A stretch of DNA of 43,606 nucleotides, taken from positions 1 to 43,606 of the forward strand of contig JAHILE010000059.1 of assembly GCA_018897155.1 (NCBI GenBank), given 5' to 3'. Shown in pieces: positions 5,803 through 42,333 of the stretch. This DNA is from Nanoarchaeota archaeon. Lineage in GTDB: Archaea > EX4484-52 > LFW-46. How positions within the stretch are numbered: the first letter of the stretch is position 1; each line of letters opens with the position of its first letter. The notes under the pieces were generated by a model that was not told the origin of the DNA, ran no database searches, and saw only the letters and a list, made by a program, of their open reading frames with translations. Made by a program: the position numbers and the translations under genes.

Positions 5803-6690
5803 TTAATTAATTTTGCGTTTTAAACGTTTTACGTTTTCCGGCTGCTCCAGAAAATTCTCCGGTGTAGAAACGCTTCTTCCTGTTTCGATTTCTAATTTCT
5901 TTTTTGCATCTCCGGCAATTGTTCCGCCTTTGTTTGCAGCTTCTTTGTTTTCATCGAAACCTCGAGCGTCTTTTGCCCTTGCGATTTCGGTTGTTGCGCG
6001 CTCGCCAAGCATAGAGAAAATGAGTTCCAAATCATTCATGTGATCGCGCAGATTTTCTTTTTTCAAGCCCTTGAAATCTTTATATTCTGTCGGAGTTAAT
6101 CCGAACGTTGCTTTTGAAATCTCGGCGGTCAAAATCGCGTATTCCCGGTCTGCTTTAACTCCGCGTTTTTCCCATTCATTTGTAAGTTCATCCCTTATGG
6201 CGATTCCGCGCACTCGTTTTTCAATCCAGTCTTCTGAATAGCCCTTTGCCGCGTATATTTCGCGCATCCGTTTCATTGCGATTTCGGGATTTTCTATTTC
6301 CTGGACGCGCTCGTAGCCGACCTTTGCGAGCCATTGCTTGAAGGGCTCTGCACGAAGTGATGGAATTGCTTGAATGAGGCGAAACGCGTTTTGAGTATTG
6401 ACACAATCAGTAGTATAATATTTACCGTCGGAGGATTGCATTTTCAGTTGGTTACAAATTGTAACCAACTGAGGCTCCCGATGCTTTAAAACCTTCCAAT
6501 AATTGTTCGGATTAGCACTTTCTGTCAAACTGGCTACAATATCCACAACCGAGAAAAACCACTCGTTTTTGTGCCATATCCTTCTAATTTGCTTTCCCTG
6601 AAACACCACCAAAGCATTTTCAGTTGCAAAGTGTCCTGTCATAGCAACTGAAAAGCTGAGAGCGTGAGCGAACAGATCATGCGCGTCCAT
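5803..6690 (-). CDS. Bro-N / DinD-like protein, copy 1
   Basis: A 295-residue protein. The N-terminal part ([25 protein letters not shown]) is a Bro-N domain, a DNA-binding module of viral antirepressors. The C-terminal part (ISKATFGLTPTEYKDFKGLK, then [22 protein letters not shown] and GGTIAGDAKKKLE) resembles the C-terminal half of DinD, a DNA-damage-induced protein reported to inhibit RecA in Escherichia coli. The frame is open to 6795 by a TTG, but the ATG at 6690 lies 22 bases from the TATA element at 6712-6720 and aligns with the start of copy 2, so a leaderless start at 6690 is preferred. Nearly 80 bases around the start match copy 2 closely, implying recent duplication. The function here is unknown. 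Confidence 0.85.
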   Translation of the reverse strand: MDAHDLFAHALSFSVAMTGHFATENALVVFQGKQIRRIWHKNEWFFSVVDIVASLTESANPNNYWKVLKHREPQLVTICNQLKMQSSDGKYYTTDCVNTQNAFRLIQAIPSLRAEPFKQWLAKVGYERVQEIENPEIAMKRMREIYAAKGYSEDWIEKRVRGIAIRDELTNEWEKRGVKADREYAILTAEISKATFGLTPTEYKDFKGLKKENLRDHMNDLELIFSMLGERATTEIARAKDARGFDENKEAANKGGTIAGDAKKKLEIETGRSVSTPENFLEQPENVKRLKRKIN

Positions 6691-19732: not shown

Positions 19733-20632
19733 CTATTGCTTCAACTTCTTTTCAAGCTTCTTTGCAGAATTTAATTCAATAAAGTTTTCATTAGAAACTA
19801 TTTTAATTCCTAGGCTTTTTTCCGCATCATTCAAGGCTCTTCCTGCAACTGAACCGCCTTCGTTTGCAATAATTTGGTTCTGAATAAATCCTCTCGCGTC
19901 TTTTTTCCGCGTTGCCTCTGTTGTAAGCCGCTCGCCAAGCATTGAAAATATGAGTTCGAGGTCGTTCATATGATCGCGTAAATTTTCATTCTCCAAGCCT
20001 TTGGCTTTCTTGTATTCGCTTGGCGTAAGCCCAAAAGTAGCTTTTGAAATTTCTGCGGTTAGAATAGCGTATTCCCGGTCTGCTTTAACTCCGCGTTTTC
20101 CCCATTCATTTGTAAGTTCGTCTCTTATGGCGATTCCACGCACTCTTTTTTCTATCCAGTCATCAGAATATCCTTTTGCCGCGTATATTTCGCGCATACG
20201 CTTCATTGCGATTTCAGGATTTTCTATTTCCTGCACGCGCTCGTAGCCGACTTTTGCGAGCCATTGCTTGAATGGTTCGGCTCTTAAAGAAGGAATTGAC
20301 TGAATGATTCTGAACGCACCTTGCGTATTTACGCAATCCGTTTCTCTTAATTTGCCATCCTCCGCCAACAATTTCAACTGTACACAAATTGTGTACAGTT
20401 CAACTCCGTGTTCTGATTCTCTTGATTTAAGCATATTCCAATAGTTTCTCGGATTTGCGCTGTCCGTAAGGGCTTGAATAATATCCACAACCGAGAAAAA
20501 CCACTCGTTATCGTGCCACACCCGTCTGATTGCCTTTCCCTGAAACACCACCAAAGCATTTTCAGGTGCAGAATGTCCTGCCATAGCAACTGAAAAGCTG
20601 AGAGCTCGAGCGAACAGATCATGCGCGTCCAT
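19733..20632 (-). CDS. Bro-N / DinD-like protein, copy 2
   Basis: A 299-residue paralogue of copy 1, with the same Bro-N start (VVFQGKAIRRVWHDNEWFFS) and DinD-like C-terminal half ([54 protein letters not shown]). Residues MDAHDLFARALSFSVAMAGH at the start are almost the same as in copy 1. The ATG lies 22 bases from its TATA element, so it should be leaderless. Long stretches of DNA are identical between copies 1 and 2, while the segment after the Bro-N core (about residues 75-95) differs, as if one part evolves faster. It lies downstream of a methyltransferase gene but has its own promoter. Confidence 0.85.
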   Translation of the reverse strand: MDAHDLFARALSFSVAMAGHSAPENALVVFQGKAIRRVWHDNEWFFSVVDIIQALTDSANPRNYWNMLKSRESEHGVELYTICVQLKLLAEDGKLRETDCVNTQGAFRIIQSIPSLRAEPFKQWLAKVGYERVQEIENPEIAMKRMREIYAAKGYSDDWIEKRVRGIAIRDELTNEWGKRGVKADREYAILTAEISKATFGLTPSEYKKAKGLENENLRDHMNDLELIFSMLGERLTTEATRKKDARGFIQNQIIANEGGSVAGRALNDAEKSLGIKIVSNENFIELNSAKKLEKKLKQ

Positions 20633-38550: not shown

Positions 38551-38601
38551 ACACATCTATTGACAAATGCAAATATAAAAAACAAAAACAAAGGAAAATG
38601 C

Positions 38602-39186
38602 ATGACAAAGATAACATTCAGCACTGAAGAAATCCGAGATATCGCGATATCTACAATAGCGCTTGGCATAATCTTTTCAATAGGCCCTGGTTTTTCTTTT
38701 GCAGAAGCCGGACTGATAACTGTAATAGTTGCCTTATCATTCATCCCGCATGAGCTCGCCCATAAGTTCGCTGCAGTGCATTATAAGTGCTTTGCGCAGT
38801 ATGAAATGTGGAAAAACGGACTGATTATGGCTTTGTTGCTTGCAATTGTAACAAACGGCGGCTTTGTTTTCGCTGCGCCTGGTGCGGTAGTAATATACAC
38901 TGTGTTCCAGAGCAGGCATGGTCTTCACCAGATTGTGCTCTCTCCAAGGCAAAATGGAATAATATCGATTGCAGGGCCGCTTACAAACATGTTCATCGCA
39001 GCGCTATTCTTTATTTTCGCGCCAACATTCTTCCTTACAAAAAGCATAGTCTATATCAACACATTCCTTGCAGCATTTAACCTGCTTCCGATACCGCCGC
39101 TTGACGGCTCAAAAGTGTTTTACTGGAACAAGTTTGTGTGGTTGGGAATGATGCTTTTTGCGGGCGGAATTTTGATTTCGACCTAA
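38602..39186 (+). CDS. Site-2 protease family intramembrane metalloprotease (M50)
   Basis: A 194-residue membrane protein with five or six helices. The zinc site HELAH lies in SFIPHELAHKFAAVHYKCFA, and the third ligand is in FNLLPIPPLDGSKVFYWN (the N-x-x-P-x-P-x-x-D-G motif). Such proteases cut membrane-bound regulators within the bilayer. It is the minimal form without PDZ or CBS domains. An AAGGA lies about 8 bases before ATG 38602. It is two genes away from the membrane-tethered winged-helix regulator, a possible substrate, but no direct evidence links them. Confidence 0.88.
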   Translation: MTKITFSTEEIRDIAISTIALGIIFSIGPGFSFAEAGLITVIVALSFIPHELAHKFAAVHYKCFAQYEMWKNGLIMALLLAIVTNGGFVFAAPGAVVIYTVFQSRHGLHQIVLSPRQNGIISIAGPLTNMFIAALFFIFAPTFFLTKSIVYINTFLAAFNLLPIPPLDGSKVFYWNKFVWLGMMLFAGGILIST

Positions 39187-39207: not shown

Positions 39208-41658
39208 TCAATAAACTACGCCGCCATAATAGTTCTGCTCTTCAAAAGGCAACTCCACCTTGTTGATTTCATCCAACGTGTCCAGCGCGTTCATCTTTAT
39301 CAGCTTTTGCGAAATTGTATAGAGCGCATTATCGATGTAGAGCGAACGGCGTATCTGGGTATTGTAGTCATAGTTATAATTATACATCGTTTCATTAAAA
39401 GTTGACGGCGCCTTATTATGGCTTATTTTTCCTTTAAGTGAAATTCCGTTTGCTAAATCTATATTAAATACATATGCTGATTGTTCATAAGTGCTTCGCC
39501 AGAAATCTCCAAATTCAGGCTTAGTATTTTCAACATTCACCTGATGATATTCTGAAACAGGAATAACAAGCAAATTCTTTTCCTTGCTGAAAAGGAATGC
39601 TTTGTGGTCGCGCAATGCTTCTGAATCTGTTCCGCGCTCACCTATTACGTATTTTGAGATCTCTTTTGGATTGGCAACATCAGATACGTCAAACAATGAA
39701 AGCTTCATTCCGGTTATTCGCCCTTCCTCTGTTGCATCCCTTCCGACTCCGATTATATGCGTCTCATCGTAAGGATGCAGATAATCCGATACGCCGGGTA
39801 TTTTAAGGTATCCCAATACCTTCGGATCTTGTGGAACTGACAAATCAATCACAAATAATGGATCAATCTGCCTGAATGTCACCATATAGGCTTTATCGCC
39901 AAGGAATCGTACCGAATAAATACGCTCGCCAGATGCGATATCCTGGAGCTTTCCGACAATATTCAAATCCTCGTCAAGAACATATACGTGATTCAGCGGA
40001 CCTGTCGGCTGAGGTGGCGGAGCCACTCTTTTTTCAGCAATTGTTTTTGTTGGATTCTCTTGCTCTATTCTTTGTTGCTCTTCCCAGGTTATGCCTTCAG
40101 AAGATTCTGAAATACCTTCAGATCCAATGTTCTGTGAAGTTGAAGAAACCGCATTTCCTGTTGCTCCAGATGCAGTTGCTTCAGCAATTGCGGTCTGTGC
40201 ACGCACAATACCCCCACCCATTGGAACAAATCCGCCATTGCCGCTTGTTGTGGTCGCAATTCTAAAATATCCGTTGTGCTCATCCATTGAAAACTGATTT
40301 AGCGTGTTTCCGGGCACTTCGCCGCTTGTCTTGTATTCTATGTTTCCGTTATCTATAGCGATTTTTTGGATGATTGTCTTCTCGCGCTCCTTTGCAATCT
40401 GATTCACAAGCTCTTCCATTTTTACAGCCGTATTTTCTTCAAAAGCCTGCCGTTCTTCAAAACTCAATGATGCAGTATATTTACCAAGTATTTCTGTCAC
40501 TGCCTGCATTTTTGTCTGCTTGCTGATTTCAAGCGCCATTGCAGCATTTATTTTTTCCCGAACATCTGACGGAACTTGTGGCGTTATTATTTCAACCAAT
40601 CTATCGATATAGTCAAATTCGCTCATCCATTTTGTATATGTTATGTAGATGTTTTTCTCGGAAACATACATATTCTGGGCGTAATTAGTCAGAAGAATCT
40701 TGCTTTCAACATCAGTTGGATTGTCAAGATCAATTGAAGCAATTGTTGTAAATACGTTTCCGGGGATGTATTCAAAATAATACATATCCGGGAATGCTGT
40801 TGAAACGGCCTTACCGTTTGCATATATTCTTGGCACAGTTACGTTGTTCTTCGCATCATACAAATAATAAGTGGGCTGATTTGCTATGACGTAAACATAA
40901 TTTCCAATCATTCGCGAATCATAATAATTGCCTTCAAGTGAAACTCCTGATAAAATAGACGGATTATTCCTGTCAGCAACATCATAGATTTTGATAGTGG
41001 TTTTTGACGAATACATTATCGGCGGCATGCGCGCAATACTTACATCCGCCAGTTTTGATGAGCCTGCGATCTCTTTTTCACGCGGCATCGGCTCTGCATA
41101 GTTTTCATAAACCTGCCCGAATATAACAAGCCGGTCGCCATTCAAAAATATTTCATTAACACTGCCATTAAAATCTATTTTTGATAGAACTTTCGCATTT
41201 TCTGCGGGCGATGCCTCAACAATAATTATGCTGTTTCCAGAAACCGTATAAATATATTTTCCGTCATTTTTTACAATGTCCGCCTCATCCACGCCTGCGA
41301 CCTGTATGTTGGTTTGGGAATAATCCGGTGCTCCGCCAACTTCAGGGGCGCTATTATCCGATGCAGACTTACTCGCGCCAGTAACTGCCATTTGTTCGGT
41401 AACCATTGCAGAGCGTGCTATTAATCCGCCATAGCCGTATCCAGAAGTATCTGAATTCTCGGCAAGATATTTTTGAAGCTCTTCAAGAGATGCTATTTTT
41501 TTTAGGCCTGGAGATGCTTGCGGTTGATCAAGAGAGCTATAATGTATGGCAGAATATGCCACAATAATCAAGAACACAATGCCCAGACCCGCAAGAGCGC
41601 TGCCGAAAGCTTTTTTGCCGCAAAACCCCGCATTACAATTTTTTGACATAATTGACAT
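39208..41658 (-). CDS. Secreted, membrane-anchored beta-propeller protein
   Basis: About 816 residues. One hydrophobic helix (FGSALAGLGIVFLIIVAYSA) close to the N-terminus anchors it outside the cell. The rest matches the archaeal and bacterial family of secreted proteins with a C-terminal beta-propeller distantly related to WD40: TNIQVAGVDEADIVKNDGKY, YTVSGNSIIIVEA, NHVYVLDEDLNIVGKLQDIA, IYSVRFLGDKAYMVTFRQ and DPLFVIDLSVPQDPKVLGYL. A poorly structured insert rich in G, A, T and S (about nt 39990-40260) interrupts the propeller. Blades probably bind a ligand or a surface partner. The start at 41658 was chosen because the TATA element at 41691-41700 puts the transcript start near 41671; 41649 is also possible. 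Confidence 0.85.
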   Translation of the reverse strand: MSIMSKNCNAGFCGKKAFGSALAGLGIVFLIIVAYSAIHYSSLDQPQASPGLKKIASLEELQKYLAENSDTSGYGYGGLIARSAMVTEQMAVTGASKSASDNSAPEVGGAPDYSQTNIQVAGVDEADIVKNDGKYIYTVSGNSIIIVEASPAENAKVLSKIDFNGSVNEIFLNGDRLVIFGQVYENYAEPMPREKEIAGSSKLADVSIARMPPIMYSSKTTIKIYDVADRNNPSILSGVSLEGNYYDSRMIGNYVYVIANQPTYYLYDAKNNVTVPRIYANGKAVSTAFPDMYYFEYIPGNVFTTIASIDLDNPTDVESKILLTNYAQNMYVSEKNIYITYTKWMSEFDYIDRLVEIITPQVPSDVREKINAAMALEISKQTKMQAVTEILGKYTASLSFEERQAFEENTAVKMEELVNQIAKEREKTIIQKIAIDNGNIEYKTSGEVPGNTLNQFSMDEHNGYFRIATTTSGNGGFVPMGGGIVRAQTAIAEATASGATGNAVSSTSQNIGSEGISESSEGITWEEQQRIEQENPTKTIAEKRVAPPPQPTGPLNHVYVLDEDLNIVGKLQDIASGERIYSVRFLGDKAYMVTFRQIDPLFVIDLSVPQDPKVLGYLKIPGVSDYLHPYDETHIIGVGRDATEEGRITGMKLSLFDVSDVANPKEISKYVIGERGTDSEALRDHKAFLFSKEKNLLVIPVSEYHQVNVENTKPEFGDFWRSTYEQSAYVFNIDLANGISLKGKISHNKAPSTFNETMYNYNYDYNTQIRRSLYIDNALYTISQKLIKMNALDTLDEINKVELPFEEQNYYGGVVY

Positions 41659-41664
41659 AATCAA

Positions 41665-41685
41665 CACAGACAATATTTGTCTGTG
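41665..41685. promoter_or_regulatory. Perfect 21-bp palindrome at the start of the beta-propeller transcript, candidate operator
   Basis: Arms CACAGACAA and TTGTCTGTG are exact reverse complements around a TAT centre. The palindrome begins 6 bases downstream of the TATA element GGTATAAATA (41691-41700, minus strand), so it covers the predicted transcription start. Binding there would block the propeller gene. The adjacent divergent gene encodes a winged-helix regulator, the natural candidate to bind it. Confidence 0.65.
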
Positions 41686-41690
41686 ACGCA

Positions 41691-41700
41691 TATTTATACC
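41691..41700 (-). promoter_or_regulatory. TATA element of the beta-propeller gene
   Basis: GGTATAAATA on the minus strand is a strong archaeal TATA box, about 35-40 bases before the chosen start codon. It is the reference point for placing the palindrome over the transcription start. Confidence 0.6.
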
Positions 41701-41769
41701 TATGTTTTTCATTCGGCAACGACCGAACAAAGAAGGAATGCTTAAAAGCATAGAACTACAAAAACGATT

Positions 41770-42333
41770 ATGGAGCTAGACCGCAACACAATAAAAGCGC
41801 TTTCTGCAGAAACGCGGCTAAAAATACTGAAAACGCTTGCAAAACAGAAGAAGATGCCGTCGGAACTGTCAAGAGAAATCGGCGTTTCCCCGTCAACTGT
41901 AGTCGGGCACCTCCAAAATCTTGAATCCGCCGGCCTTGTGAAGCGTGTTGAAACCGGGCACAAGTGGGTGTACTACACGCCAACTGACAAAGGCAGGTAT
42001 TTAGTTCAGCCGCGCGTCCCTCTTCAACTGGCGCTGACGCTTGCCGCAGGCATCATAACGGCTTCTTTCGGATTCTTAAGATTTTTTTCGGGTGGCGCGC
42101 TTTCTTCATCAATGCAAAAAGCAGCAACGTCCGAATCAGTCCAGACTACTGCATCTCAGGCCGTATTAGGTGCGCCAGAGGCTGCTTTAGACTCTGCCGG
42201 CACTGCATCGCAAAGCCTGCCTACGGACTGGATTGCAATAGCAATGATCGTGGCAGGCGTTGCCATTATAGCATACGGCATATACAACATAAATAATGAA
42301 AAAAGAATGAATTTAAAATCAAAACATGTATAA
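41770..42333 (+). CDS. Membrane-tethered ArsR-type winged-helix regulator
   Basis: A 187-residue protein. Residues 1-75 form a winged helix of the ArsR type (LSAETRLKILKTLAKQKKMP, then ELSREIGVSPSTVVGHLQNLE and a wing with VETGHKWVYYTPTDKG). Two membrane helices follow (about residues 82-103 and 155-173) with a roughly 50-residue S/A/T/Q-rich stretch between them that should be outside. The DNA-binding domain is thus held at the membrane, inside. No metal-binding cysteines are seen, so it is probably not a metal sensor. A TTAAAAG element about 25 bases before the ATG suggests a leaderless transcript. It is divergent from the beta-propeller gene, with the palindrome between them. Confidence 0.85.
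   Translation: MELDRNTIKALSAETRLKILKTLAKQKKMPSELSREIGVSPSTVVGHLQNLESAGLVKRVETGHKWVYYTPTDKGRYLVQPRVPLQLALTLAAGIITASFGFLRFFSGGALSSSMQKAATSESVQTTASQAVLGAPEAALDSAGTASQSLPTDWIAIAMIVAGVAIIAYGIYNINNEKRMNLKSKHV

Follow-up and report, generated by a model that had tools for sequence, protein, structure and literature searches.

A beta-propeller and a membrane-held winged-helix regulator as a proposed split one-component unit in archaea

The window, a stretch of 43,606 nucleotides from a Nanoarchaeota archaeon (contig JAHILE010000059.1, source genome 1.43 Mb), carries a divergent gene pair. A PF09826 beta-propeller gene lies on the minus strand (39208–41658), and a winged-helix regulator gene with two predicted membrane helices lies on the plus strand (41770–42333). 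Both ORFs bore out this pair as it had been described in an initial annotation. Our preferred reading, with a probability of roughly 0.7, is that the two proteins may form a split transmembrane one-component unit, in which the extracellular propeller would be the sensor and the regulator would act on its own promoter and that of the propeller. This reading draws on the parts themselves, their recurrent linkage, natural fusions, conserved dyads, a fixed dyad–TATA spacing and a match between HTH type and dyad, all read from sequence. The initial annotation had suggested a one-component switch in which a propeller on the outside works with a regulator held in the membrane. Natural fusions, recurrent adjacency and shared promoter dyads spoke strongly for this core, but not for the palindrome and the M50 protease it had named as further components.

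Pfam analysis identified the propeller as a clear member of PF09826 (Beta_propel, secreted C-terminal beta-propeller proteins). It scored 553.6 bits (cut-off 22.4) over profile positions 1–495, with E values of 6.9e-167 to 6e-166. The domain spans 39274–41322 on the minus strand (E = 6.9e-167), and it is the only PF09826 copy in the source genome. The protein is predicted to be exported. Its start codon is 41658 or 41649, and the mechanical ORF extends to 41751, across the promoter. Numbered from 41649, residues 15–38 (41536–41607, minus strand) were predicted as an N-terminal membrane anchor, both from a low-confidence AlphaFold2 helix and from the hydrophobic sequence, in agreement with the earlier proposal that the propeller is anchored outside. 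The model further predicted a helical insertion at residues 344–422 and a disordered insertion at residues 471–548. A sequence search against the PDB gave no match, and a fold search returned just generic multi-bladed propellers with TM-scores of about 0.2.

The regulator has 187 amino acids. Residues 1–79 (41770–42006, plus strand) form an ArsR-like winged-helix DNA-binding domain, recognized by HTH_5 (E = 9.7e-13) and by NF033788 (55.1 bits, cut-off 55). The pLDDT was about 90 across most of this domain, and Foldseek matched it to SmtB, CzrA and Phr. A first transmembrane helix is predicted at residues 85–107 (42022–42090), followed by a largely disordered predicted outer loop at residues 108–153 (42091–42228; pLDDT < 50 at 115–117 and 120–149). 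A second predicted helix with a basic C-terminal tail occupies residues 154–185 (42229–42324). The HTH_5 match and the predicted helices thus agree with the earlier description of a winged helix and two membrane helices around a loop. The protein shares the ArsR-type winged helix with the ArsR/SmtB metalloregulators, but their metal-binding cysteines are absent. Its 187 residues contain no cysteine, indicating that it is not a cysteine-based metalloregulator.

Some bacterial transmembrane transcription regulators (TTRs) are accompanied by a neighbouring membrane protein, such as ToxS or TcpH. TTRs are defined by a DNA-binding domain and at least one transmembrane region in one protein, and the regulator combines an HTH_5 domain with two hydrophobic helices in the same way. 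TTRs of the ToxR, CadC and TcpP type (PMC10269533) control transcription from the membrane, and the regulator may do the same. Unlike the TTRs surveyed, it has an ArsR-like winged helix, with a PF09826 propeller as its partner or, in fusions, as the putative sensor; neither "propeller" nor "PF09826" occurs in the text of that survey. An archaeal likeness is ArnR/ArnR1 of Sulfolobus, which has an N-terminal HTH and two C-terminal transmembrane helices and regulates surface structures (PMC6396743). ArnR boxes in the target promoter are also inverted repeats, TCGAC-N5-GTCGA (PMC6396743). However, in ArnR the HTH and the transmembrane helices are separated by HAMP and sensor domains, and there is no propeller. 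The regulator leaves no room for such domains, since its HTH ends near residue 79 and its first helix starts at residue 85, and HAMP was not among the Pfam matches listed for it. The absence of these domains indicates that it is not ArnR.

A candidate shared operator lies between the divergent promoters. The dyad TTCGGCAACGACCGAA (TTCGG-CAACGA-CCGAA, 41712–41727) was missed in the initial annotation and has conserved counterparts in related units. The chance expectation of TTCGG-N6-CCGAA for the whole window is 0.05. The propeller TATA box TATAAATA (41698–41691, minus strand) falls within the longer mechanical ORF, and a TATA-like element of the regulator, CTTAAAAG, is at 41741–41748 (plus strand). 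The regulator transcript is probably leaderless. From the dyad centre (41719.5) it is 21.5 bp to the propeller TATA and about 22 bp to the regulator TATA, and this near-equal distance suggests that one site serves both promoters. Relative to the regulator ATG, the dyad occupies −43 to −58. A second genomic site of TTCGG-N6-CCGAA (L081) was rejected as it lies within coding sequence and has no promoter.

Related units fell into two types by their HTH. For the window-like type A, the core TTCGG-N6-CCGAA was present in the window and upstream of a fusion (L133) and of L225 and L120, and the alternative core TCGGG-N6-CCCGA was present at L052, L053, L058, L060 and L078. In window-like units these dyads are 57–69 nt ahead of the start codon. 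For type B the core is TTCAA-N6-TTGAA, inside ATAACTTCAA-N6-TTGAAGTTAT. This core had 41 matches in 42.7 kb of upstream windows versus 10 in 1.35 Mb elsewhere (130-fold, p = 8e-53), and TTCAA with a spacer of N5, N7 or N8 had zero occurrences in the unit upstream regions. It also precedes propellers that have no adjacent regulator, including those of Methanoperedens (L131, L151). Positions 15–19 after the dyad were A or T in 42 of 42 aligned sites, with the TATA element about 14 bp downstream, indicating that the dyad keeps a fixed spacing to the TATA and lies directly upstream of the BRE.

The dyads followed the HTH type. The TTCGG dyad was found in five of 10 type A units and none of 45 type B units (Fisher, 7e-5), and the TTCAA dyad in none of 10 and 23 of 45, respectively (Fisher, 0.003); the p-values for the dyads are generous because some units are related to each other. 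This match is the best available evidence, from sequence comparison, that the adjacent winged helix-turn-helix (wHTH) protein would read the dyad. Counting against the preferred reading, a recognised dyad is absent from half of the linked units. Two Nitrosopumilus loci (L110, L118) carry GTGAAA-N6-TTTCAC, with the same spacer, 57–58 nt before the regulator ORF; in ammonia oxidisers the operator may take this form.

Linkage of the two genes was assessed in two samples. Searching public genomes with the propeller alignment yielded 80 loci. A Nanoarchaeota-type phylum sample contained 371 genomes, of which 103 had the propeller, and 90 loci were read. For the window's own phylum, searches at that level returned the order-level set, as this phylum holds one order here. 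The window's GTDB order includes members deposited as Aenigmatarchaeota, among other labels. The genomes are public and largely MAGs, start codons are mechanical, and the profiles were trained partly on linked genes.

Both parts occurred in one chain repeatedly. Eight of the 80 public loci encode a single protein with an N-terminal wHTH, one transmembrane helix and the propeller (L089, L091, L106, L133, L136, L140, L155 and L160), and 10 of the 90 phylum loci encode such fusions. At least 16 distinct loci have this single-chain form, and Pfam confirmed an HTH family together with PF09826 in five of them. Mapped onto the propeller tree, fusion status switches about 10 times, and well-supported branches force at least seven of these switches. 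Separate genes were also found side by side. A wHTH gene with two transmembrane helices (wHTH-2TM) adjoined the propeller at 26 of the 90 loci, 22 times upstream on the same strand. An adjacent wHTH-TM gene was present at eight of the 80 public loci, including Nitrosopumilaceae, a euryarchaeon and a Woesearchaeote, and in four genomes of the window's order. Fusions and pairs together extended to Aenigmatarchaeota, Nitrosopumilaceae and a euryarchaeon. A wHTH-TM gene farther off from the propeller was not seen in any locus read. Twenty-six pair-bearing genomes have about one full-length wHTH-2TM gene each, the one next to the propeller, so that adjacency is not explained by abundance. The query was built from propeller-adjacent genes, which in part accounts for their rank but not for the low copy number.

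The pairing is not strict. The initial annotation had proposed adjacency in other archaea as a check, and pairs and fusions did recur in several phyla; however, most propeller loci were unpaired, with no regulator alongside 94 of 145 distinct archaeal propeller loci, which counts against the preferred reading. Within the window's order, genus g4 (G011, G012) has the regulator gene immediately ahead of the propeller gene and in the same orientation. In several other genera the regulator is beside other exported proteins and the propeller is elsewhere, which also counts against the preferred reading, and a strict one-to-one pairing was rejected for this reason. In four genomes of genera g8 and g9, the gene immediately following that for an exported 700-aa transglutaminase-like protein encodes a relative of the regulator (L061:4988–7641, L068:1854–4549, L070:730–3430 and L071:6430–8963), as if the regulator could swap its surface partner. 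The sister species G001 (L051:8007–9330) keeps the order M50–propeller–regulator–GT4. There only the C-terminal half of the propeller is left, the front half and the shared promoter are absent, and a frameshift interrupts the loop of the regulator. These losses, which we count in favour of the preferred reading, reflect either joint decay or an assembly fault.

The arrangement of the parts suggests how the unit might work. Tethered to the outer side of the membrane, the beta-propeller would act as sensor, and the two-helix regulator would pass the signal to its cytoplasmic winged-helix domain. We infer that the propeller senses something and that the signal crosses the membrane; in the split form, contact would be made through the transmembrane helices or the outer loop. 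A winged-helix dimer would then read the short inverted repeat, which in the window is TTCGG-N6-CCGAA (41712–41727). Bound just upstream of the BRE/TATA of both genes, it would set the unit's own transcription. Elsewhere in archaea the same parts would work as one wHTH-TM-propeller protein.

The position of the dyad tips the balance somewhat towards an activator rather than a repressor. Archaeal activators bind upstream of the BRE and recruit TBP or TFB, and archaeal repressors usually occupy the promoter itself or sites downstream of it (PMC5937170, PMC5512572). The activator TFB-RF1 of Pyrococcus furiosus has a footprint from −47 to −70 from the start codon and a core of TCTG-N5-CAGA (PMC5937170). 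TFB-RF1 and EarA (PMC5512572) both act just upstream of BRE/TATA, and the TFB-RF1 footprint is near the position of the window dyad. Since the dyad lies upstream of the BRE, as the sites of archaeal activators and the TFB-RF1 footprint do, activation by aiding TFB or TBP binding is favoured and repression would be less likely. TFB-RF1 and EarA differ from the proposed unit in that they are not described as membrane receptors, have no propeller and use an operator unlike the window dyad.

The most serious alternative is that the propeller is an output, such as an adhesin, envelope enzyme or scaffold, and that the regulator, with its own helices detecting the membrane or another ligand, controls the propeller gene. 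Regulation in cis would by itself suffice for adjacent units with conserved dyads, and the regulator relatives beside transglutaminases and other exported proteins fit a general regulator of surface proteins. Yet the single-chain fusions have the layout of a receptor, which would be needless for a pure target gene, and they make the propeller most likely the sensor. We regard the output role as possible but unlikely.

Reading the propeller as sensor in a one-component unit has wider implications. PF09826 proteins are common and exported, no function has been assigned to them, and little is known of extracellular sensing in archaea. Within the open-licence literature we found no function for PF09826 and no paper linking it with a regulator. 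We lean slightly to the view that the units represent a widespread, undescribed archaeal receptor, made of an extracellular PF09826 propeller and a membrane-held wHTH in separate chains or in one, with a type-specific N6 dyad at fixed TATA spacing. If so, this receptor type would range from DPANN lineages to ammonia oxidisers, Methanoperedens propellers would have just the dyad in front of them, and an event on the outer surface would act on a promoter with no kinase or cytoplasmic messenger in between. Fusions that join a DNA-binding domain and an outside propeller in one chain, together with a defined dyad, make function, operator and mechanism testable. The parts are also present in Nitrosopumilaceae that are close to strains in culture.

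The initial annotation had placed the operator elsewhere, at a "perfect" 21-bp palindrome covering the predicted transcription start of the propeller gene. The palindrome CACAGACAA-TAT-TTGTCTGTG (41665–41685) does exist, and its place downstream of TATAAATA agrees with that start site. It is not perfect, as it has 9-bp arms around an asymmetric TAT centre. A regulator bound here would be a repressor blocking the start site, a classic repressor position, and the palindrome is improbable by chance (expectation 0.003–0.004 per 119-bp region). However, it is a single copy in the genome, where allowing three mismatches added one three-mismatch site, and no related locus has a counterpart. A different, conserved dyad follows the HTH type. 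It was rejected as the family operator, and we consider repression through it improbable. It may belong to another regulator.

Other palindromes in the window (6448, 20378, 13665) fall inside coding regions. Two related-looking minus-strand genes (5803–6690 and 19733–20632) have 21-bp palindromes with a 3-nt centre at matching places (6448–6468 and 20378–20398), whose arms, TTGGTTACAAATTGTAACCAA and CTGTACACAAATTGTGTACAG, differ yet still pair.

The initial annotation had also pointed to an M50 protease beyond the propeller that might release the regulator. A small M50-type gene with the motifs HELAH (HExxH) and LPIPPLDG is indeed present (38560–39186), and cleavage in the membrane would free the DNA-binding domain. 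It adjoins the propeller tail to tail in the window, in G001 (L051) and in one other Aenigmatarchaeota locus (L097), but among some 180 further loci examined no M50 gene was seen next to the propeller, and the gene faces the propeller, not the regulator. The conserved protease–substrate linkage of regulated intramembrane proteolysis is thus seen only in these three loci; a general M50–propeller linkage was rejected as lineage-local, and the releaser role is even less probable than the palindrome operator. That propeller and regulator are chance neighbours, as their separation in several genera of the window's order could suggest, is refuted by the linkage statistics (fusions, adjacency, low copy number and dyad enrichment) and has almost no probability left. 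At one locus (L089:718–5682), a wHTH-TM-propeller fusion is followed 34 bp on by a second, unfused propeller.
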